Shown in pieces: positions 30,249 to 39,504 of a stretch of DNA of 47,648 nt. Made by a program: the position numbers and the translations under genes. Source of the stretch: Gammaproteobacteria bacterium (GTDB lineage Bacteria > Pseudomonadota > Gammaproteobacteria > Steroidobacterales > Steroidobacteraceae); assembly GCA_028870275.1 (NCBI GenBank), contig JAGWPY010000206.1, positions 1-47,648 of the forward strand, written 5' to 3'. The notes under the pieces are model-generated. The model saw only the letters and a list, made by a program, of their open reading frames with translations, was not told the DNA's origin and made no database searches. The stretch's first letter is position 1. Every line of letters begins with the position of its first letter.

Positions 30249-31070
30249 TCAGCGGTTCGGCGTCGTCGCCTTCGGCGCTGCCGCAGGCGGTGCGGGGGGC
30301 GCAGGGGGCGTCGCCGCCGCCGGGGGCTTCACGCTCAGCAGGTCGACGTCGAAGATCAGCAGCGATCCCGGCGGAATGCCAGGACGGGGGCTCTCGCCGT
30401 AGGCGAGTTCGGGCGGCACGAACAGCCGCCATTTGGCGCCCGGCTTTATCATCGGCAGCGCCTCCTGCCAGCCCTTGATGACCGCATCGACCGGGAACGT
30501 TGCCGGCTGGCCGCGCTTGTAGGAGCTGTCGAACTCGCTGCCATCGAGCAGACGGCCGCGGTAATTCACCGTGACGAGGTCGGTCGGTTTGGGTGAGGGC
30601 GCCTGCGCGTCGCCTTCCGAGAGCACCTGGTACTCGAGACCGGACCCGGTGGTCTTCACGCCGGGCTTGCGGCCGTTCGCGGCCAGGAACGTGCGCGCCA
30701 TCGTCTCGCGACGCTCGAGGCTGCGGGTCATGACTTCGCGCACGAAGGACTGGAGGCGCTGCTGATCGGCCGGATCGGCTTTCTTGCCGGCGAGCCCCGC
30801 CTTGATCCCGCGGTCGATCGCGGCCACCGAGACTTCGTTGGTGATGCCCGCGGAGTGCATCTGCGCGCCGAAGTTCAGGCCGATGATGTAGCCGGCCTGG
30901 TCCGGAGTCGGTGTGGCGGCCGCCGCGGCTCCGCCGCCGGTTGGCGTACCCTGGGCCTTGCCCGAAGGCGCGCCGAATGCGGCGCCAGAGGGTCCGAAGG
31001 CAATCGCCGCAGCGCCGACCAGTATCATCGCGCGGGAGCGGACCAGGGATCGAACGACGGGGTGGTTCAT
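30249..31070 (-). CDS. Periplasmic FKBP-type peptidyl-prolyl isomerase (FkpA/Mip-like)
   Basis: A 273-residue exported folding catalyst. An N-terminal signal region with a slightly long n-segment (MNHPVVRSLVRSRAMILVGA) is followed by a dimerisation domain (about 50-140, with YIIGLNFGAQM). The FKBP domain (about 150-250) has VTVNYRGRLLDGSEFDSSY, IKGWQEALPMI and RLFVPPELAYG. The C-terminal 25 residues are Pro/Ala-rich. FkpA and Mip relatives assist outer-membrane and secreted protein folding. It lies between argH (57 bp) and lptM, probably as a separate unit from the arginine genes. Confidence 0.92.
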   Translation of the reverse strand: MNHPVVRSLVRSRAMILVGAAAIAFGPSGAAFGAPSGKAQGTPTGGGAAAAATPTPDQAGYIIGLNFGAQMHSAGITNEVSVAAIDRGIKAGLAGKKADPADQQRLQSFVREVMTRSLERRETMARTFLAANGRKPGVKTTGSGLEYQVLSEGDAQAPSPKPTDLVTVNYRGRLLDGSEFDSSYKRGQPATFPVDAVIKGWQEALPMIKPGAKWRLFVPPELAYGESPRPGIPPGSLLIFDVDLLSVKPPAAATPPAPPAPPAAAPKATTPNR

Positions 31071-31127: not shown

Positions 31128-32318
31128 CTACTCCTTTCGGGCGAGCCGGGTCGCGATCCGGCGGTAGGCTTCGCGAAACGGAATGCCTTCGGCGACCACC
31201 AGCGCGTTGGCCTCGGCGGCGGCATCGATGCTCGGGTCGAGCCGGATGTGCTCGGGCCTGAAACGGATCCCCGCCAGTGCCGGCGGCAGGATCTCGAGGG
31301 ATTGCCCGCAGGAGTCGATCGCCCGGAACAGCGGCGGTTTGATCAGCTGCAGGTCGCGGTGATAACCCGACGGGAGCTTCTGGGTGATGCCGAGCACCTC
31401 GGCGAGCGCCGCCTGAGCCACGGCACTGCGGCCGCGCAGCAGTTCGAACACGTCCGGATTGCGCTTTTGCGGCATGATCGAGGAGCCGGTGGTGAATTCC
31501 TCCGGCAGACGGACGAAGCCGTATTCCTGGGTATAGAACAGCAGCAGGTCCGCCGCCAGGCGTCCTAAGTCCTGGGTGAGCAGCGTGATCTCGAATAGCA
31601 GCGCCGCCTCGGCCTTGCCGCGCGAGAGTTGCACCGCGGTGACCGGTTCGTGGACGGCGGCGAATCCGAGGCGCTTGCGGGTCGATTGCCGGTCGATCGG
31701 CAGGTTCGGCGTTCCGTAGCCGGCGGCCGAGCCGAGGGGGTTGCGATCGAGGCGGCGTTGGCAGGCGAGCAGGCCCTCGGCGTCGTCGCGGATCTCGGCC
31801 GCGAAGCCACCCGCCCACAGCGCGACGCTGCTCGGCATGGCCTGCTGCATATGCGTGTATCCGGGCAGACGGATCGAACCCTCGCGCGCCGCGAGATCAT
31901 CGAGCGCCTCGGCCACCGCGAGCGCCCCCGTGCGCAGGCCCGCGGCGGCGTCGCGCAGGTACAGGCGCAGCGCGACGAGCACCTGGTCGTTGCGCGAGCG
32001 ACCGGCGTGGATCCGCCCGCCGGCGGCGCCGACCCGCGCCGTCAGGCGGTTCTCGATCGCGGTCTGTCCGTCCTCTTCCTCCAGCGTCACGCGCCACTCG
32101 CCGCGGGCATGTTCCGCGCCGATCTCGAGCAGCGCCGCGCGGATCGCCGCCAGATCCTCGGCGCCGAGCAGACCCTGGGCCGCGAGCATCTCGGCGTGTG
32201 CGATCGAGGCCTCGACGTCGTAGCGAACCAGACGATCGTCGAGCCCGTGGTCATCGCCCGCGGTGTAGGCGAGCACCCGGGCATCGAGCGGCTTGCCCTT
32301 GTCCCAGAGGCGGCTCAT
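31128..32318 (-). CDS. argH: Argininosuccinate lyase, short C-terminus
   Basis: Splits argininosuccinate into arginine and fumarate. Key regions are HAGRSRNDQVL, TYGTPNLPIDR-like nucleotide and substrate contacts, and the fumarase-superfamily signature GSSIMPQKRNPD with the catalytic Ser. At 396 residues it is some 60 shorter than E. coli ArgH and stops just after EGIPFREAYRRIA, so the usual C-terminal helical domain is missing. The downstream DNA shows no continuation in another frame, so this is not an obvious frameshift. Start ATG at 32318; last gene of the arginine operon, 23 bp after argB. Confidence 0.93.
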   Translation of the reverse strand: MSRLWDKGKPLDARVLAYTAGDDHGLDDRLVRYDVEASIAHAEMLAAQGLLGAEDLAAIRAALLEIGAEHARGEWRVTLEEEDGQTAIENRLTARVGAAGGRIHAGRSRNDQVLVALRLYLRDAAAGLRTGALAVAEALDDLAAREGSIRLPGYTHMQQAMPSSVALWAGGFAAEIRDDAEGLLACQRRLDRNPLGSAAGYGTPNLPIDRQSTRKRLGFAAVHEPVTAVQLSRGKAEAALLFEITLLTQDLGRLAADLLLFYTQEYGFVRLPEEFTTGSSIMPQKRNPDVFELLRGRSAVAQAALAEVLGITQKLPSGYHRDLQLIKPPLFRAIDSCGQSLEILPPALAGIRFRPEHIRLDPSIDAAAEANALVVAEGIPFREAYRRIATRLARKE

Positions 32319-32341: not shown

Positions 32342-33289
32342 TCAGGCCGAGGCCGACGCGACGTGCTGTTCGGCCGGCGTCAGCGCATTGAGATCCGCCA
32401 CCACCAGGGTGCCGGTGCCCTCGTTCGTGAACACCTCGGCGAGCAGGCTGTCGCCGGTCTTGTACGAGATCACGTGCACGCGACGCACGCCGCCGCGGAT
32501 CGCATTCTCGATCGCGGCGGCCTTCGGCAGCATGCCGTCGACGAGGCTGCCCTGTTCGCGCAGCTTCTTCAGTCCCTTCAGGTCCGTGTACGAGATCAGC
32601 GAGCCTGGCTCGTCGGGCCGCTCGAGGATGCCCGGTGCGCCGGTGCAGAGCACGAGTTTCTCGGCGGCGAGGCCCGCGCCGATCGCCGCGGCCACCGTAT
32701 CGGCGTTGATGTTGAGCAAAGTCCCTCCCGCATCGGAGGACAGCGGACTGACCACCGGCATGAGCCCGTCGGCGAGGAGCTTTTCGATCGCGCTCGTGTC
32801 GACGTCGTCGATGTCGCCGACGAAGCCGTAGTCGACCAGATCGCCGCTGCCGTCGCCACTGCGGACCAGCGGCCGCTTGTGGGCGCGGATCAGGCCGGCG
32901 TCGACGCCGCTCACGCCGATCGCCTCGATGGCGAGTTCGCGGCAGATCGCCAGGATCCGCGTGTTGATCAGGCCGTTGAGCACCATCGCCGTCGCGTCGA
33001 TCGACTGCTGGTCGGTCACGCGGCGTCCGCCGATCATGCGCGTCTCGATGCCGAGCGCAGCCTGCAGCTGATCGAGCTGCGGTCCGCCGCCGTGTACCAG
33101 CACCGTCTTGATGCCCACCTGGTGCAGGATGGCCACCTGTTCGATCAGGGCGCGGGTGGACTCGCGATCGGCGAACACCGCGCCGCCCGCCTTGATGACG
33201 AACACCTTGCCCTTGTACATGCGGATGTAGGGCGCCGCGCTCTTCAGTGCGCGCACGGCGATCGAAGGGTCCGGTCGACTGGTGATCAT
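32342..33289 (-). CDS. argB: N-acetylglutamate kinase family (acylglutamate kinase)
   Basis: Phosphorylates the gamma-carboxylate of N-acylglutamate in the second step of arginine synthesis. The 315 residues contain the amino-acid-kinase motifs VIKAGGAVFAD, TVLVHGGGPQLDQL, LLNINADTVAAAIG and GMLPKAAAIENAI. Lys in VIKAGG is the phosphate-binding lysine. It is not fused to an acetyltransferase domain, unlike the ArgB of Xanthomonas, so the acyl-group donor enzyme must be elsewhere. It is coded 36 bp after argF' and 23 bp before argH. Confidence 0.93.
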   Translation of the reverse strand: MITSRPDPSIAVRALKSAAPYIRMYKGKVFVIKAGGAVFADRESTRALIEQVAILHQVGIKTVLVHGGGPQLDQLQAALGIETRMIGGRRVTDQQSIDATAMVLNGLINTRILAICRELAIEAIGVSGVDAGLIRAHKRPLVRSGDGSGDLVDYGFVGDIDDVDTSAIEKLLADGLMPVVSPLSSDAGGTLLNINADTVAAAIGAGLAAEKLVLCTGAPGILERPDEPGSLISYTDLKGLKKLREQGSLVDGMLPKAAAIENAIRGGVRRVHVISYKTGDSLLAEVFTNEGTGTLVVADLNALTPAEQHVASASA

Positions 33290-33325: not shown

Positions 33326-34321
33326 TCAGGCGAGCATGCGATGCAGTACGGCCATCTGCACCACCATACGGTTGTAGGCCTCGCGCCGAACGACGGCGCG
33401 GGGTCCATCGAGCGCTTCGTCGGCGATCGCGACGTTGCGGCGCACCGGCAGGCAGTGCATCAGCTTCGCATCGGCCGCGGCGCCCGCGAACCAGCGCTCG
33501 CGCACGCACCATTCGCCGAGCGATGCGCGCAGTCGCGCATCCGCCTCGACGTCGCCGTAATAATCGGTCGTGCCCCACTCCTTGGCATACAGCACCTGGG
33601 CGCCCGCCATCGCGCTCGCGCGGTCGGTGGTTTCGCTGACGCTGCCGCCGGATTCGGCCGCGGCGCGCCGCGCTTTCTCCATGATCCTCTCGGGCAGGGC
33701 GAAGCCCTCGGGCCGCAGCACGACGACTTCCATGCCGCGCATCGCCGCCATGTGCACGGTCGCCGCCGGCACCGCCAGCGGCAGCGGCCGCGGGTGATAC
33801 GCCCAGCTCAGCACGAACTTGCCCCGACGCGGCACGCCGAGCTCATCGAGGGTGCGCCAGTCGGCCAGGGCCTGGCAGGGATGGTTGACCGCCGATTCGA
33901 GGTTCACGAGCGGCTTGTCGCAGAGCCCGTCGATCATGCCGAACAACGACTCGCCGAGGTCGGCCTCGAGGTTCTTGCCCTCGGCGAATGCCCGCACGCC
34001 GAGCGCGTCGCAGTAGGAGGCGAGCACCGGGATGCCTTCGCGGATGTGTTCTGCCGCGGCGCCGTTCATGACGGCCTTCAGTCGGGTTTCGAGCTGCCAG
34101 GTGCCCTGGCCCGGCGAGATCACGAAGGAACTGCCGCCGAGCCGGGCCATGCCGGCCTGAAACGAGGAGAGGGTGCGCAACGAGGGGTTGAAGAACACCA
34201 GCCCGAGGATCTTGCCGGCGAGCGCCTGCGGTTGCGGGTGGTCCTTGAGCGACTGAGCGAGCGCGAGCAGATCGAGTACCTGTTCGCGCGAGAAATCGGC
34301 GAGATCGAGAAACCGCTTCAT
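33326..34321 (-). CDS. argF': N-acylornithine transcarbamylase (ArgF'-type)
   Basis: Transfers a carbamoyl group to N-acetyl- or N-succinylornithine rather than ornithine. Carbamoyl-phosphate motif is FFNPSLRT (43-50); HPCQALADW, SWAYHPRPLPLAVPAA and HCLPVRRNV are characteristic of acetyl/succinyl-ornithine enzymes, and ordinary OTCase motifs (DVWVSMG, HCLPAFHD) are absent. From published structures, residue Glu92 of the Xanthomonas enzyme and Pro90 of the Bacteroides enzyme select acetyl or succinyl; here the matching position in NGAAAEHI is Ala90. The lysine after HCLPLRRNV in Xanthomonas is Ala here. The acyl group used is therefore open. 331 residues, 10 bp after argD. Confidence 0.9.
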   Translation of the reverse strand: MKRFLDLADFSREQVLDLLALAQSLKDHPQPQALAGKILGLVFFNPSLRTLSSFQAGMARLGGSSFVISPGQGTWQLETRLKAVMNGAAAEHIREGIPVLASYCDALGVRAFAEGKNLEADLGESLFGMIDGLCDKPLVNLESAVNHPCQALADWRTLDELGVPRRGKFVLSWAYHPRPLPLAVPAATVHMAAMRGMEVVVLRPEGFALPERIMEKARRAAAESGGSVSETTDRASAMAGAQVLYAKEWGTTDYYGDVEADARLRASLGEWCVRERWFAGAAADAKLMHCLPVRRNVAIADEALDGPRAVVRREAYNRMVVQMAVLHRMLA

Positions 34322-34331
34322 GTTCGGCTCT

Positions 34332-35498
34332 TCACGGATGAATCTGGGCGAGCGCGTCGCATAACTGGTCGACGTGGCTTTCGTTGAGGATGTAGGCGGG
34401 CAGCAGCCGCAGCACCTGCGGATCGCCGGCCGTGCCGGTGAGGATGTTTCGCTCCATCAGCGCGGCTTGCACTTCGCGCGCCGGCCGCGAGGTCCGCAGG
34501 CCGAGCAGCAAACCCTCGCCCTGGACGCCGGTGACCGGGCCAACCAGGCAGTTGGCGCGAATATAGGTCGAGACCGTGCGCACGTTGTGCAGGAGCGATT
34601 CGGACTCGATCGCATCGATGACCGCCTCGGCGACCGCGCAGGCCATCGGTCCGCCACCGAAGGTCGTACCCATGTCGTCGTAGCGGATCTGCCGCGCGAT
34701 GCGCCGGGCGATGAGCAGCGCGGCAACCGGAAAGCCATTGCCGAGCGCTTTGGCGGTGGTCAGCAGGTCGGGCGTCACCCCGTAGTGGTTGGCCGCGAAC
34801 GGCGAGCCGCTGCGACCCATGCCGCATTGCACTTCGTCGAAGATCAGCAGCGCACCGGTGTCGTCGCAGCGGCGCCGCAGCGCTTCGAGCATGGGCTTGC
34901 CGAGGTCGTAGGCCCCGCCGACGCCCTGAATCGGCTCGACGATCACGGCCGCGGTGTCGCGATCGACGTACTGCTCGATCGCCTCCGGCCGATCACGCGG
35001 CGCGAAACTCACGTCGAACGGGCGTCGGGGAAAGCCATACCACTTCTCGATCGCACCCCAGGTCACCGCGCCGGCCGCGGCCGTGCGCCCATGCCAACCT
35101 TGTTCCAGGGCGACCGCCTTGGTGCGGCCGGTGAGTTTGAAGGCGAGCTTGAGCGCGTTCTCGTTCGCCTCGGCGCCGCTGTTGATCCAGAACACGGTGT
35201 CGAGCCCGAGGCCGGCGAACTTGACCAGTTTCGCCGCGGCGCGCTCGCGGATCGCCATCGGCAGCGCGTTCGTCTGGAAGGCGATCTGCCGGGCTTGCCG
35301 CTCGAGCGCCGCCAGCCAGCGAGGATGACCATAGCCCAGGCCCGCGACCGCGTGGCCGCCGTAGAAATCGAGGAACTTGCGGCCGTCGCGCGCGTGGATC
35401 CAGACCCCCTCGCCGCGAACGACATCGATCGGATATTGCGCGAACACCCGCGCGAGGTGCGAGGCGGCACCTTCCGCCGCATGCGTCGCCGTAGACAT
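34332..35498 (-). CDS. argD: Acetylornithine (acylornithine) aminotransferase
   Basis: A PLP-dependent class III aminotransferase of 388 residues making N-acylornithine from the semialdehyde. The Schiff-base Lys250 lies in TTAKALGNG, the PLP-ring Asp221 in IFDEVQCGMGRSG, and NSGAEANENALKLA and GTTFGGGPMACA are standard. Acetyl and succinyl forms cannot be told apart by these motifs. It is 9 bp after argC and 10 bp before argF', consistent with a linear acylated pathway. Start ATG at 35498 gives a usual N-terminal segment ending in VFAQYPIDVVRGEG. Confidence 0.95.
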   Translation of the reverse strand: MSTATHAAEGAASHLARVFAQYPIDVVRGEGVWIHARDGRKFLDFYGGHAVAGLGYGHPRWLAALERQARQIAFQTNALPMAIRERAAAKLVKFAGLGLDTVFWINSGAEANENALKLAFKLTGRTKAVALEQGWHGRTAAAGAVTWGAIEKWYGFPRRPFDVSFAPRDRPEAIEQYVDRDTAAVIVEPIQGVGGAYDLGKPMLEALRRRCDDTGALLIFDEVQCGMGRSGSPFAANHYGVTPDLLTTAKALGNGFPVAALLIARRIARQIRYDDMGTTFGGGPMACAVAEAVIDAIESESLLHNVRTVSTYIRANCLVGPVTGVQGEGLLLGLRTSRPAREVQAALMERNILTGTAGDPQVLRLLPAYILNESHVDQLCDALAQIHP

Positions 35499-35507
35499 CG
35501 ATGCTCC

Positions 35508-36569
35508 TCAGGTCCAGCCAGGCGCAGGCGCGGCGAGTCCTGCGGTCTCGTCGAAGCCGAACAGGCGGTTCATCCACTGTACCGCCCCGCCCGCGGCGCC
35601 CTTGTCGAGGTTGTCGAGGACCGCGGTCACCACGGCCGTGGTCCCGTCGGCGGCGACGCCGAGATGCGCGTAGTTGCTCGCCACCACGTCCTTCAGGCGC
35701 GGCATGGCCTCGGTCACGCGCACGAACGGCTGGCCCGCGTAGTAGTCGCGCAGCGCGTCGCGCACCGCCGAGCCCGACATCGGTTTGCGCAGTCGCGCCT
35801 GCACCGTGACATGGATGCCGCGGGCGAACGGGCCCGAGTGCGGCACGAAATGCACCTGCGCGGCGACGCCGCTCGCCGCTTCGGCGCAGGCGAGGATCTC
35901 CGGCACATGTCGATGGGCGAGCGGATTGTAGGCGTACAGGTCCGAGTGCCGACGCGGGTGATGGGTGCCCTCGACCGGCTTGCGCCCGGAGCCCGTGCTG
36001 CCGGTCACCCCGCTCACGAACAGCGTGGGTTCGGCGATCCCGGCCGCGAGCAGGGGCACGACGCAGAGCAGGATCGCACTCGCGAAACAGCCGGGATGGG
36101 CGACGTGCGCCGTCGGCGAGCGGGCGAGATGTTCGGGCAGGGCGCAGGTGAACTCGGCGATGCGCGCCGGCGCGCCATGCGCATGCCCGTAGACCGCGCC
36201 GTAGGCGTGGGCGTTGCGATAGCGGAAGTCCGCGGAGATGTCCACGCAGTGCACGTCGGTGGCGCCGCTCTCGGCGACCTGGAGCAGCCGGTCGATCAGG
36301 GCCGCGGCCACGCCGTGGGGCGCCGCCGAGAACAGCGCGGCACGCGGCGCGGCGCCGAGCAGCGCCTCGATCTCGGCGAGGTCGAGGAACGAACGGCCGG
36401 CGTAGGCGCTCTGCAGATGCGGGAACGCCTCGGCGATCCCGCCTCCGGCCTGGCTGTCGGAGAGGACACCCGCGAGCTCGAAATGGGGGTGTCCGGCAAT
36501 CAGCCGCAGGAGCTCCCCGGCCACGTAGCCGGTGCCGCCGAGCACGAAGGCCGGGACGCGCGCGTTCAT
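35508..36569 (-). CDS. argC: N-acetyl-gamma-glutamyl-phosphate reductase
   Basis: Reduces N-acylglutamyl phosphate to the semialdehyde with NADPH. The 353 residues show the cofactor loop GGTGYVAGELL (11-21), the catalytic Cys161 in HPGCFASA, GVTGSTGSGRKP and the acid/base His region FVPHSGPFARGI. This is the type with the substitution HPGCF rather than HPGCYPT. The ATG overlaps the stop of the P-loop gene (ATGA), so translation is coupled. argD follows after 9 bp. Confidence 0.94.
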   Translation of the reverse strand: MNARVPAFVLGGTGYVAGELLRLIAGHPHFELAGVLSDSQAGGGIAEAFPHLQSAYAGRSFLDLAEIEALLGAAPRAALFSAAPHGVAAALIDRLLQVAESGATDVHCVDISADFRYRNAHAYGAVYGHAHGAPARIAEFTCALPEHLARSPTAHVAHPGCFASAILLCVVPLLAAGIAEPTLFVSGVTGSTGSGRKPVEGTHHPRRHSDLYAYNPLAHRHVPEILACAEAASGVAAQVHFVPHSGPFARGIHVTVQARLRKPMSGSAVRDALRDYYAGQPFVRVTEAMPRLKDVVASNYAHLGVAADGTTAVVTAVLDNLDKGAAGGAVQWMNRLFGFDETAGLAAPAPGWT

Positions 36570-37645
36570 TCGGCGGCCGACCGGGGTTCGCGTGCCTTGG
36601 CGATGCCGAGACGGGAGATCACGTGGTCGCCGAGGTCGGCCGGATTGCTGATCGCGTTGAAGGCCTCGACCCCCATCTGCTCGCGGATGATCTGCACGCC
36701 GACCTGATTGTCGGTCGCGGGGCCCGTGACCACGCAAGGTTCGATGCCGAACTTCTCGCGCAGCAGCTTCACGCCGCCCCAGGCGGCGACCGGGTCGTTG
36801 GCCGACAGCGCCACCGCGGTCAACGAGCCCTTGATCGCCGGATCGAGCAGGATCGCCTCCACCCCATAGGCGCCGAGCAAGCCGTCGCCGAGTTCGAAGA
36901 CGATCGCATCCGGCGTGCCGGCGGCCATTTCGCTCAGCATGGTGCGCGTGAGCGCCGGTCCGTTCTTCTCGGTGGTCGTGACCACGCCGAGATCCGTGAA
37001 GATCATGGTGCGGCGTGCCCCGGCGTCCTCGAAGGCGAGAATGTCGCGGCGAAGCGAGACCCCGGTCGCCTTGAACGCATCCACGGTGAGTCCGCGGTGG
37101 CGCATGCGCGCGATGATCGCCGCCGCGGCGGCGGTCTTGCCCGCTTCCATGCAGGTGCCGGCCAGGGCAACCACCGGCACGCCGCGCGCGTCGACCGCGG
37201 CGCCGTAGTCGAGCGCCTTGAAGCCGGCGCGGGCGGGCACGCCGATCCGCTCGCCGAGATAGGGGAAGGTGAGCACCGCACCGAGCACGCGGCAGTCGAA
37301 CGGCTTGCCCTTCTCGGGGTTCGCCGAATCACAGATGCCGAGTACGCCGCCGATGTTGAGCATCTGGATCACGTCGCCCGGCTTCAAGCTCGCCGGGATG
37401 TGCCCGGAGTAGCCGAACAGGGCGCGGCGGTGGCCGAGCGCGCCGACCACGACGTCGCCGCGCGAGACCTTCGCCATGCGGCCGCTGGTCAGCTCGAGCG
37501 TGTTGTAGCTCGACTTGTTGTTCAGCACCTCGACGACGATCAGGTTGCCTTCCTCGCAGACGATGTTCGGCGAGATCCGCACCTCGTGCGACAACGCACA
37601 GGCCTGGGTCACCGAGGCGATCTTGTCGACGACGACGCTGCGCAT
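36566..37645 (-). CDS. Unrecognised P-loop protein inside the arginine operon
   Basis: A 359-residue soluble protein I cannot assign. Residues 1-140 form a beta-rich region with Gly turns (RGDVVVGALGHRRALFGYSG, LNIGGVLGICDS). Residues 155-345 look like a MinD/BioD/DUF1611-type P-loop domain: Walker A GTCMEAGKTAAAAAI (163-177), KATGVSLRRD, TDLGVVTTTEKNG, and a hydrophobic strand ending FELGDGLLGAYG (250-261) that may be Walker B. ATG at 37645 is 5 bp after argG; a GTG at 37654 would overlap its stop. The stop overlaps argC ATG. An ATP-dependent step or regulatory role in arginine synthesis is inferred from context only. It does not resemble ArgA, ArgE or ArgJ. Confidence 0.85.
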   Translation of the reverse strand: MRSVVVDKIASVTQACALSHEVRISPNIVCEEGNLIVVEVLNNKSSYNTLELTSGRMAKVSRGDVVVGALGHRRALFGYSGHIPASLKPGDVIQMLNIGGVLGICDSANPEKGKPFDCRVLGAVLTFPYLGERIGVPARAGFKALDYGAAVDARGVPVVALAGTCMEAGKTAAAAAIIARMRHRGLTVDAFKATGVSLRRDILAFEDAGARRTMIFTDLGVVTTTEKNGPALTRTMLSEMAAGTPDAIVFELGDGLLGAYGVEAILLDPAIKGSLTAVALSANDPVAAWGGVKLLREKFGIEPCVVTGPATDNQVGVQIIREQMGVEAFNAISNPADLGDHVISRLGIAKAREPRSAAE

Positions 37646-37650
37646 GCCGC

Positions 37651-38877
37651 TCACGGCTGCTTCGCCCCGGCGCGCTGGTAGAACATGCCCGGCAGAGCGA
37701 GGATCTTCGAGTAGCCGAGCGCGTCTGCCGGGGTCCACTCGCCCGCAGCCTCGCCGTAGACGCCCTTCGAGGCGGCCATGAGCGAATGAGGCGAGCTGAC
37801 GCCCTCGACGAACGCGCTGCCCGGGCGCATCAGCACGTGGACCTCGCCGGTCACGCGCGCCTGCGAGGACAGCACTAGCGCCTCGATGTCCCGGCATGCC
37901 GGATCGAGGTGGTGTCCTTCGTGCACCAGATCCCCGTAGGGCTGGGCGAGAGTCTCCTTGACGCGCGCCTGACGCGCGGTGAGCACGAGCTTCTCGAGTT
38001 CGCGATGCGCGTTCAGGAGCACCTCGGCGGCGGGCGCCTCGAAGGCGACCCGGCCCTTGGTGCCGATCACGGTATCGCCCAGGTGGATTCCACGACCGAT
38101 GCCGAACGGGCCGGCGAGGGACTCGAGTCGCTCGATGACCGCGACGGCTGAGAGCCGGTCGCCGTCGAGACCGCAGGGCACGCCGCGCTCGAACGCGATG
38201 ATGTGACGTTCGCTCGGACGCGGCCGCGTGAATGCCTCGCGCGAGAGCACCCAGGCCGACTCCGGGATGCTGCCCTGGGAGGTGAGCGTCTCCTGTCCGC
38301 CGATGGTCACGCCCCAGAGGCCGCGATTGACCGAATAGGCGGCGCCGTACGGCGGCACGGGCAGCGCGCGCTCCTCGAGGTATTTGAGCTGCTCGGGGCG
38401 CTTGAAGGCGCGGTCGCGGACCGGCGCGAGGATCTCCAGGCCAGGGGCGAGCGTGCGCAGCGCCACCTCGAAGCGGACCTGGTCGTTGCCGGCCGCCGTG
38501 CAGCCGTGGGCGACGATGCGGGTGCCCATCTTCACCGCCATCTGCGCGATCGTCTGCGCCTGCAGCACCCGCTCGGCGCCCACGCACAGCGGGTAGAGCT
38601 GGCCGCGGCGCACGTTGCCCATGATCAGGTACTTCAGCACCTGCTCGAAGTATTCGGCACGCGCATCGACGAGCTCGTGTCCGACCGCGCCGAGCGCCCG
38701 CGAGCGTTCGGCGAGCAGTTTCGCCGCCGCGGCGTCGATGCCGCCGGTATCGACGGTCACGGTGACCACCGGCCGGCCGTGGTTCTCGGTGAGCCAGGGC
38801 ACGAGGAACGAGGTGTCCAGTCCGCCGGAGAATGCGAGAAGGATGGGCTCTTTGCCCGCCGAGTGAGTGCTGGTCAT
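37651..38877 (-). CDS. argG: Argininosuccinate synthase
   Basis: Condenses citrulline and aspartate with ATP. The 408 residues carry the PP-loop LLAFSGGLDTSFLVPWL, VAHGCTAAGNDQVRFE and GAAYSVNRGLWGVTIGG, all family hallmarks. The N-terminal ATG at 38877 lies 8 bp after argR and gives an eight-residue lead-in before the PP-loop. Since the pathway proceeds through acylated intermediates, citrulline for this enzyme must come from a deacylase that is not in this window. Confidence 0.96.
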   Translation of the reverse strand: MTSTHSAGKEPILLAFSGGLDTSFLVPWLTENHGRPVVTVTVDTGGIDAAAAKLLAERSRALGAVGHELVDARAEYFEQVLKYLIMGNVRRGQLYPLCVGAERVLQAQTIAQMAVKMGTRIVAHGCTAAGNDQVRFEVALRTLAPGLEILAPVRDRAFKRPEQLKYLEERALPVPPYGAAYSVNRGLWGVTIGGQETLTSQGSIPESAWVLSREAFTRPRPSERHIIAFERGVPCGLDGDRLSAVAVIERLESLAGPFGIGRGIHLGDTVIGTKGRVAFEAPAAEVLLNAHRELEKLVLTARQARVKETLAQPYGDLVHEGHHLDPACRDIEALVLSSQARVTGEVHVLMRPGSAFVEGVSSPHSLMAASKGVYGEAAGEWTPADALGYSKILALPGMFYQRAGAKQP

Positions 38878-38885
38878 GGGTCGGT

Positions 38886-39347
38886 TCAGATTCCGAAGGT
38901 CGCGAGGAGACGCTCGCCGAGCCGGCGCTGGTCGCGCGCGCTCGCCGTGGCGATGAAAATCGTGTCGTCGCCGGAGATCGTGCCGGCGACCTCGGGCCAG
39001 GCGGCCGAGTCGATCGCGACCGCGACGCTCTGCGCGGTGCCGATCTTGGTCTTGATCACGGTGAGATTCGCGCCGGCGGCGACGCGCGAGATCACGAAGC
39101 GGCGCAACGCCGAGAAGTCGTTCACGGAGCGGGTCGCCTCGTCGCTGAGCACATAGCGTCGGCCGAGCTTGGCGACGCCGAGCTCCCGCAGGTCCCGGCT
39201 GACGCTCGACTGGGTCGCCGGATGGCCGCGCCGGCGCAGCAGCTCGACCAGCTCCGCCTGCCGCTCGATGGTTCGCTCGCGCAGGATCTTCGCGAGCAGG
39301 TCGCGCCGGGCGGCGGTTCCGTTCTGGTCGGTCAGGGGCGCGAGCAT
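38886..39347 (-). CDS. argR: Arginine repressor ArgR
   Basis: A hexameric arginine-sensing transcription regulator of 153 residues. The N-terminal winged helix has ERQAELVELLRRRGHPATQS and SSVSRDLRELGVAKL for DNA contact; the C-terminal domain ends with GTISGDDTIFIATASARD, which carries the Asp residues that bind L-arginine. It is the first gene of the arginine operon, with two ARG boxes directly upstream, so it should repress itself and the whole pathway. This contrasts with E. coli, where argR is unlinked from arginine structural genes. Confidence 0.95.
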   Translation of the reverse strand: MLAPLTDQNGTAARRDLLAKILRERTIERQAELVELLRRRGHPATQSSVSRDLRELGVAKLGRRYVLSDEATRSVNDFSALRRFVISRVAAGANLTVIKTKIGTAQSVAVAIDSAAWPEVAGTISGDDTIFIATASARDQRRLGERLLATFGI

Positions 39348-39359
39348 GTTTCTGGCGTG

Positions 39360-39394
39360 TGCATAAATTTGCGCACATGCTGCATAAAGATGCA
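39360..39394 (-). promoter_or_regulatory. Two tandem ARG boxes in front of argR
   Basis: TGCATAAAGATGCA (39381-39394) is a near-perfect ARG half-pair (consensus TGMATWWWWATKCA) and TGCATAAATTTGCG (39360-39373) is a degenerate second one. Their start-to-start distance is exactly 21 bp, the spacing of natural tandem ARG boxes. They lie 13-47 bp before the argR ATG and over the predicted promoter. Confidence 0.8.
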
Positions 39395-39405
39395 GGGGCT
39401 GTCAA
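39377..39405 (-). promoter_or_regulatory. Candidate promoter of the arginine operon
   Basis: On the minus strand a perfect -35 TTGACA (39405-39400) is followed after 17 bp by CAGCAT (39382-39377), a weak -10. The -10 and spacer coincide with the ARG boxes, so ArgR would block polymerase directly. The rest of the 157-bp gap 39348-39504 shows nothing else. Confidence 0.55.
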
Positions 39406-39504
39406 TGTCGACGCGCCCGCGGGGCAAGGCGAGGATGCGCCGCGGCCGGTGGACGACGGCACGGCCGGGTGTTGGCGGCACGGCCGGGTGGCGGCGGTGC
39501 CCGC

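Follow-up and report, generated by a model that had tools for sequence, protein, structure and literature searches.

A P-loop protein encoded in arginine operons of Steroidobacter- and Woeseia-like Gammaproteobacteria is a candidate N-acyl-L-glutamate synthase

The contig JAGWPY010000206.1 of a Steroidobacteraceae genome (assembly GCA_028870275.1), whose 47,648 nucleotides are hereafter called the window, carries on its minus strand an arginine operon in the order argR-argG-X-argC-argD-argF'-argB-argH, where X is a gene for a 359-residue P-loop protein. We are close to certain that X is a protein of the arginine pathway. It is probably the N-acyl-L-glutamate synthase of the soil and marine bacteria that carry it, to which we assign a probability of roughly 0.7, and would replace ArgA, ArgJ or NAGS-K with a protein of unrelated fold. 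Genome-based prediction would leave the first step of arginine synthesis blank in these bacteria, and X is a candidate gene for this gap.

X occupies positions 36566-37645 of the minus strand, with its ATG at 37645, its TGA ending at 36566 and 359 codons; the reading of the same interval on the plus strand was rejected. The Walker A motif GTCMEAGKT covers residues 163-171. The argG stop codon lies 5 nucleotides ahead of the ATG of X, and on the other side the stop of X and the start of argC share 4 nucleotides (ATGA). A preliminary description of this DNA had already proposed a genuine 359-residue Walker A protein tightly coupled to argG and argC, and both proposals hold, with the frame now assigned to the minus strand.

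The position of X between argG and argC is conserved. A scan of GTDB contigs confirmed at least 475 relatives, and the 80 best of them are the named loci used here. The nearest upstream match to an arginine gene is argG in 79 of the 80 loci and the nearest downstream match is argC in 78, a contig edge accounting for the remaining one and two, respectively. Gaps longer than 150 nucleotides occur twice on the argG side and once on the argC side. No two proteins among the 79 that were extracted and the X of the window reach 99% identity, and none of the nine other X stretches compared exceeds 86% identity to the named proteins. The 80 loci are therefore not duplicates of one another. They derive from Steroidobacteraceae or Steroidobacter, Woeseiaceae, Nevskiaceae or Nevskiales, Chromatiales and two Rhodospirillaceae bins, and the remaining ones are titled only Gammaproteobacteria or Proteobacteria. 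Peristeroidobacter agariperforans (L139) is the sole isolate, all others being metagenome bins. This conserved place, together with the conservation of the relatives themselves (46 aligned proteins are 64-86% identical), rules out a chance or antisense open reading frame. Across 75 loci, the distances between X proteins correlate with those of ArgC (r 0.906) and ArgB (r 0.896), and those of ArgC and ArgB with each other at 0.833.

The same association is seen at the level of genomes. In a panel of 369 genomes of the class, relatives of X, counted at E ≤ 0.001, are present in 28. Nine of these genomes (G000, G017, G275, G368, G167, G288, G040, G234 and G118), which carry six different family labels, encode an arg-type X that scores 262-776 bits and is 44-100% identical to that of the window. 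The N-acylornithine transcarbamylase ArgF' exceeds the NF003384 cut-off in 13 of the 369 genomes, and all nine X genomes are among them (319-427 bits). The other four (G165, G274, G012 and G367; 610-642 bits) are termed Xanthomonas-type here, because of their resemblance and of a NAT domain. The naive probability of such an overlap is 2e-15 when kinship is ignored. All eight X stretches that were fetched, as well as the window, have argG and/or argC matches besides X. The 22 further X-like places in the panel score at most 103 bits, and no arginine-gene match surrounds any of the 12 that were inspected (L039-L050). Identities are about 21-35% for these distant families and about 43% and up for the arg-type clade, which lies in arginine loci wherever it was seen. 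The preliminary description would have counted homologues lying mostly outside arginine loci as evidence against a role in the pathway: this applies to the distant families, but not to the arg-type clade.

We compared these genomes for the known enzymes of the first step. ArgJ is found in none of the nine X genomes and none of the four Xanthomonas-type genomes, and in all ten ordinary controls, which were hand-picked among genomes without ArgF' over the cut-off. ArgA is over its cut-off in none of the X genomes, none of the Xanthomonas-type genomes and eight of the ten controls; the two other controls (G143 and G150) have short matches to its GNAT part, of 55 and 82 bits. None of the nine X genomes has the NAGS-K NAT domain, which all four Xanthomonas-type genomes possess, in agreement with the NAGS-K described for Xanthomonas in PMC1865377. 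What matches the ArgA model in X genomes is ArgB, plus GNAT-type fragments in G234, G368, G288 and G167. Ordinary ornithine transcarbamylase does not exceed its cut-off in any of the nine. X itself has no GNAT, NAT or TIGR01890 match at E ≤ 1 and no match to the ArgJ domain PF01960. The earlier suggestion that X provides a missing ATP-dependent step is well supported as regards the missing step, as neither ArgJ, full-length ArgA nor NAGS-K accompanies X and its neighbours argB and argC; the use of ATP is read from the fold.

Three genomes without an X match, whose ArgF' matches are below the cut-off, were not taken as counter-examples. G153 has an ArgF' fragment of 275.7 bits at a contig edge (contig C153, L064), 58% identical to the ArgF' of the window and with Ala at the specificity site; the bin also contains ArgA over the cut-off, ArgE, a match resembling ornithine transcarbamylase and a piece of ArgJ, and the fragment may be a contamination or an acquired copy. 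In G331, which has no ArgJ, the contigs with a truncated ArgF'-like match (242 bits) and with argB measure 3.0 and 3.5 kb, so that a gap may hide X. G065 has an ArgF'-like match of 242.6 bits and ArgJ in pieces.

A genome of another class carries X without ArgF'. In a panel of 398 genomes of the phylum, arg-type X occurs only in G000 and in G618 (566 bits); of 28 further genomes with a match, three score 107-150 bits and none of the rest exceeds 24 bits. ArgF' exceeds the cut-off in 11 of the 398, namely G000 and ten genomes at 573-643 bits. As G618 is not among them, it is X-positive without ArgF', and it has an ordinary ornithine transcarbamylase over the cut-off (346.5 bits). There, X lies in an argR-X-argC-argB locus surrounded by unrelated genes. 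G618 has no ArgJ, whereas each of the 14 further family members that were sampled has it, one of them (G752) in pieces. A cassette of X, ArgC, ArgB and a repressor in a genome devoid of ArgJ points to the first step. G618 ties X to the first steps of the pathway and not to ArgF', ArgG or ArgH, and it rules out a strict dependence of X on ArgF'. The expectation that X would occur only with ArgF' operons therefore holds for nine of nine genomes of the class panel, but not for G618.

These data also bear on two other roles for X. It could be a regulatory or maturation NTPase, similar to HypB or MobB, that supports the function of ArgB and ArgC or the channelling of metabolites and is not itself catalytic. 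X has a SIMIBI-class fold, MobB and HypB are among its profile and fold matches (see below) and its coupling to argC is tight. However, such a role leaves unexplained why ArgA, ArgJ and NAGS-K are jointly absent where X is present, and why ArgJ is missing from G618 in particular, the one sampled member of its family known to have X (the search for X did not extend to all 14 relatives). We consider this role improbable. No evidence turned up for the tethering or regulatory functions mentioned in the preliminary description, and no test was aimed at either.

Alternatively, X could free citrulline or ornithine as a deacylase or acyl-recycling transferase, an unrecognised GNAT protein making N-acylglutamate. 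ArgJ, which G618 lacks, performs both steps, and weak GNAT fragments occur in four of the nine X genomes. No M20/ArgE gene was identified in X operons, and ArgE is over the cut-off in one of the nine X genomes (G288), in all four controls given to that search and in none of the four Xanthomonas-type genomes (best matches 148-159 bits). Against this role, G618 pairs X with argB and argC only, the absent enzymes are the known first-step ones and hydrolysis does not need an ATP motif. Moreover, DapE, which may serve as desuccinylase, is over its cut-offs in eight of the nine X genomes and has an interrupted frame in the ninth, G167 (first piece 243.1 bits, cut-off 284), where the best M20 match is a YgeY-type hydrolase. 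We therefore regard a deacylase as very improbable. Away from the arginine operon, G167 has a second knotted transcarbamylase (contig C5, about 49316-51360; L091, L228) whose best model is YgeW (257.5 bits, below the cut-off of 453) and which adjoins a YgeY-type hydrolase over the cut-off; this locus looks like a YgeW/YgeY-type cluster.

X reaches no Pfam or NCBIfam cut-off. Its weak matches include DUF1611_C, MobB and CobQ/CobB P-loop models, with 15.0 bits for Pfam DUF1611_C (PF07755) over residues 156-195 only (gathering cut-off 25), 16.9 bits for Pfam MobB (gathering cut-off 26.6) and 21.6 bits for NCBIfam mobB (cut-off 76.2). NCBIfam bioD (TIGR00347, cut-off 83.3) is not among the matches of X at E ≤ 1, and two distant relatives of X score 14.9 and 15.2 bits with it. 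The sole phmmer matches in the PDB are a pair of leucine-rich-repeat proteins, with E-values of 0.0036 and 0.06. A plain annotation of X as DUF1611, MobB or BioD was rejected, as the cut-offs are not reached. X is thus a P-loop protein of the BioD/DUF1611-like kind that scores under the cut-offs of all curated families, in line with the preliminary remark that no similarity could be named. A literature search that covered few subscription papers found no description of X.

We built an AlphaFold2 model with 47 sequences (mean predicted local distance difference test, pLDDT, 78.4; predicted TM score 0.63), in which a beta-rich N-terminal part (about residues 1-150, low confidence) precedes a BioD/DUF1611-like P-loop domain (about 150-350). 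Its top Foldseek match in the PDB is dethiobiotin synthetase 3of5 (E 2e-6, TM score 0.40 by query and 0.61 by target), and SRP GTPases and HypB are also among the top 50. A profile of 18 members of the X superfamily finds BioD (E 0.0019) and MobB (E 0.005) in the PDB, and its hhalign comparison with three DUF1611 sequences (probability 89.2, E 2.2e-6, 179 columns) shows that the P-loop domain is homologous to DUF1611 at the profile level. The fold match of the model and the alignment of Walker A, the KxxTG Lys, the Thr-Gly and the Asp assign X to the BioD-type SIMIBI fold. The motifs of X are K192-x-T-G195, R200-D201, D207-x-G-A210, E251-x-GDG255 and TDN-x-VG at 311-316; we take E251, which is outside the alignment, to be the equivalent of the Mg-binding acid of BioD. 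Invariant in all 18 members are, among others, G163, M166, G169-K170-T171, K192, T194-G195, D201, G209-A210, F216, G220, T224 and E251. Residues such as Y47-N48, D254-G255, Y260-G261-V262, D312-N313 and V315-G316 are invariant in the nine arg-type rows and not in all 18, and are candidate substrate contacts.

The transcarbamylase of the operon gives an indication of the acyl group. We aligned the ArgF' of the window with the Xanthomonas campestris enzyme and its engineered forms (3l02, 3m4n and 3l05). It has Ala at the two sites that we take to be Glu92 and Lys302 of that enzyme, the residue numbers and mutant names fitting the aligned letters. Ten of 89 X loci have no ArgF' match in the stretch; in the 79 that could be read, the Glu92 site is Ala in 75, Pro in two and Val in two, and it is Glu in ten of ten Xanthomonas-type ArgF'. 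The Lys302 site, readable in 78 X loci, is Ala in 49, Val in 25 and Glu in four, and Lys in all ten Xanthomonas-type proteins. According to PMC7311316, Ser, Pro, Ala or Val at the Glu92 site confers a preference for the succinylated substrate, Bacteroidetes use succinylated arginine intermediates and BT3761 is probably an N-succinylglutamate synthase; this type of enzyme is named ArgA2, a GNAT protein, in PMC9026213. The ArgF' of the window thus has a residue of the succinyl type, and from this rule and the Ala, Pro or Val at the site we infer that X operons use succinylated intermediates, with X taking the place of ArgA2. Judged from these residues, succinyl is the fairly probable acyl group. 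An acetyl or other group, a question independent of whether X is a synthase, is rather unlikely: the ArgF' does score as an N-acetylornithine transcarbamylase, G618 feeds an ordinary ornithine transcarbamylase and the Lys302-site residues differ from the Lys of the Xanthomonas type, so that the pocket may be new, but all 79 readable loci carry a residue with reported preference for succinyl.

In the proposed pathway, X would acylate L-glutamate at its alpha-amino group, most likely with succinyl, to give the first committed intermediate. ArgB, ArgC and ArgD would then produce N-succinylornithine, ArgF' would carbamylate it and a desuccinylase, perhaps DapE, would free the amine. In BioD, a carbamate is activated at the expense of ATP, and from this precedent we propose an ATP-dependent synthesis of N-succinylglutamate, in which the P-loop domain with ATP-Mg would activate the carboxylate as succinyl phosphate and the amine of glutamate would attack it. 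The odds that ATP rather than acyl-coenzyme A (acyl-CoA) drives the reaction are about even. X might use succinyl-CoA instead. As an acyl transferase from acetyl- or succinyl-CoA, it would bind the CoA or nucleotide part with its P-loop and spend no ATP. This is a serious possibility, to which we give somewhat less than even odds. DgcN, a DUF1611 protein and the nearest analogue of X in function, is an acetyl-CoA-dependent D-glutamate N-acetyltransferase, the similarity of the X profile to DUF1611 extends over 179 columns and both ArgA and NAGS-K, which are known synthases, use acetyl-CoA. However, X is under the DUF1611 cut-off, and the Lys-Thr of Walker A and the BioD-resembling Lys192, Asp201 and Glu251 are kept in 18 of 18 members, as expected of an enzyme that binds a nucleoside triphosphate and Mg. 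The fullest version of the synthase reading is tentative and falls short of an even chance: X would be a ligase with a P-loop that couples free succinate, or some other acid, to glutamate at the cost of ATP and without acyl-CoA, in a succinyl-type pathway of Steroidobacter- and Woeseia-like Gammaproteobacteria, and an argR-X-argC-argB cassette able to pass from one class to another would displace ArgJ.

Several observations weigh against X being a synthase of this kind. We know of no established P-loop N-acylglutamate synthase, the analogy with DgcN aside. The N-terminal half of the model is uncertain (residues 1-21 and 126-139 have pLDDT below 50), and at the sequence level the X profile matches BioD entries of the PDB weakly (E of 0.0019 or higher). 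The GNAT-type fragments that match the ArgA model in four of the nine X genomes are weak as well (20-32 bits), and the absence of known synthases refers to the ArgJ, ArgA and NAT models, a GNAT of the ArgA2 kind from Bacteroidetes not having been searched with its own model; in G618, ArgA was not searched. G000 is 86% complete and in 237 contigs, so absence in G000 alone is weak evidence, and the genomes of the class panel share ancestry. X could in principle serve the deacylase step, which the G618 operon and the ATP-type motifs oppose. Finally, the succinyl specificity relies on one residue position, and the true ArgE of G288 and the ordinary ornithine transcarbamylase of G618 indicate that the acyl group and its removal may differ between lineages.

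The other genes of the window operon are all on the minus strand. The first, argR (38886-39347), encodes an arginine repressor of 153 residues with the Pfam domains Arg_repressor and Arg_repressor_C over their cut-offs (NCBIfam argR_whole, 108.1 bits, under the cut-off of 130.45). Upstream of it, positions 39348-39467 contain putative ArgR-box-like TTTATGCA repeats; the TTTATGCA-type motif is present in the window and in G618, and TTTATGCA or TGCATAAA occurs in 47 of 85 regions of 120 nucleotides upstream of argR, compared to 0.5% of mononucleotide shuffles. The place of argR at the head of the operon and this enrichment suggest that ArgR may autoregulate the X operon through these putative boxes. 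Downstream of X are argC (35508-36569; N-acyl-gamma-glutamyl-phosphate reductase, TIGR01850, 282.7 bits, cut-off 233.6), an argD-type aminotransferase gene (34332-35498; Aminotran_3, 6e-88; TIGR00707, 323.5 bits, under the cut-off of 410), argF' (33326-34321), argB (32342-33289; N-acylglutamate kinase of 315 residues, TIGR00761, 203.3 bits, cut-off 151.3) and argH (31128-32318; argininosuccinate lyase of 396 residues, TIGR00838, 302.4 bits, cut-off 279.5). ArgF', with Ala90 at the acyl-specificity site, passes the N-acetylornithine transcarbamylase model NF003384 (347.8 bits, cut-off 288), which substantiates the earlier impression of an atypical transcarbamylase. ArgB has AA_kinase as its sole Pfam domain and no NAT or GNAT domain. 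The gaps are 8 nucleotides between argR and argG, 9 between argC and argD, 10 between argD and argF' and 36 between argF' and argB. A gene for an FKBP-like peptidyl-prolyl isomerase, judged by eye, follows argH on the same strand (30249-31070).

The gene argG (37651-38877) encodes an argininosuccinate synthase of 408 residues (TIGR00032, 273.1 bits, cut-off 268.2; PRK00509 over the full length, 279.2, under the cut-off of 334). In ArgF' operons, ArgG has Gly where solved ordinary ArgG has Glu, in every one of the 92 loci that could be read (84 with X and eight of Xanthomonas type), and Phe for Tyr282 in 88 of the 92. We take this Glu to be human E270, at the citrulline site. The substitutions are compatible with an ArgG that may act on acylated citrulline, with deacylation following ArgG or ArgH.

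Distant relatives of X have other neighbours. L039 and L041, 29-31% identical, adjoin an M20 peptidase resembling glutamate carboxypeptidase and ArgE models, L041 has a flavin reductase in addition, and the neighbours of L222 are of the same sizes. In another branch, L044, L045, L048 and L049 adjoin a protein of 568-580 residues, which in L045 resembles the ABC transporter MsbA and precedes a protein with weak similarity to alpha/beta-hydrolases; this branch would belong to a separate pathway. A plasmid search yielded seven distant records (25-32% identity), two annotated as DUF1611, one each as dethiobiotin synthase, hypothetical protein and transposase, and two without annotation, and a scan of viral contigs gave five pattern matches, none of which was confirmed.

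The step proposed for X is the one performed by ArgA (AAK and GNAT domains), the short GNAT N-acetylglutamate synthases, NAGS-K and the bifunctional ArgJ. X is a P-loop protein, unlike these enzymes with their GNAT or ArgJ folds; if the synthase reading is true, a textbook committed step would have a further fold, that of a P-loop N-acylglutamate synthase, and perhaps also a novel chemistry that depends on ATP. With DUF1611 and DgcN, whose chemistry is glutamate N-acylation, X shares a homologous C-terminal P-loop domain at the profile level, but X is under the family cut-off and coexists with true DUF1611 proteins in G017, G167 and G288. BioD, a SIMIBI ATP-dependent enzyme, has the fold, Walker A, KxxTG and Asp in common with X, which differs by some 150 additional residues at its N terminus and by the lack of a bioD-model match. 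The synthase reading would thus give a function to one branch of a DUF1611/BioD-like superfamily of which others adjoin M20 peptidases or an ABC transporter. X operons have the same downstream ArgB, ArgC, ArgD and ArgF' as the N-acetyl- and N-succinylornithine transcarbamylase pathways of Xanthomonas and Bacteroides. The Xanthomonas type has NAGS-K, its NAT domain being found in four of four genomes, and an ArgE (PMC1865377), whereas X genomes have no NAT and rarely an ArgE over the cut-off (one of nine). Another parallel to X is ArgA2 (BT3761), the proposed N-succinylglutamate synthase of Bacteroidetes, which accompanies a succinyl-type ArgF' and fills the same gap (PMC9026213 and PMC7311316). 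ArgA2 is a GNAT protein, whereas X has a P-loop and occurs, among the genomes analysed here, in Gammaproteobacteria and in one genome of another class; if our reading is true, succinyl-type arginine synthesis extends beyond Bacteroidetes.

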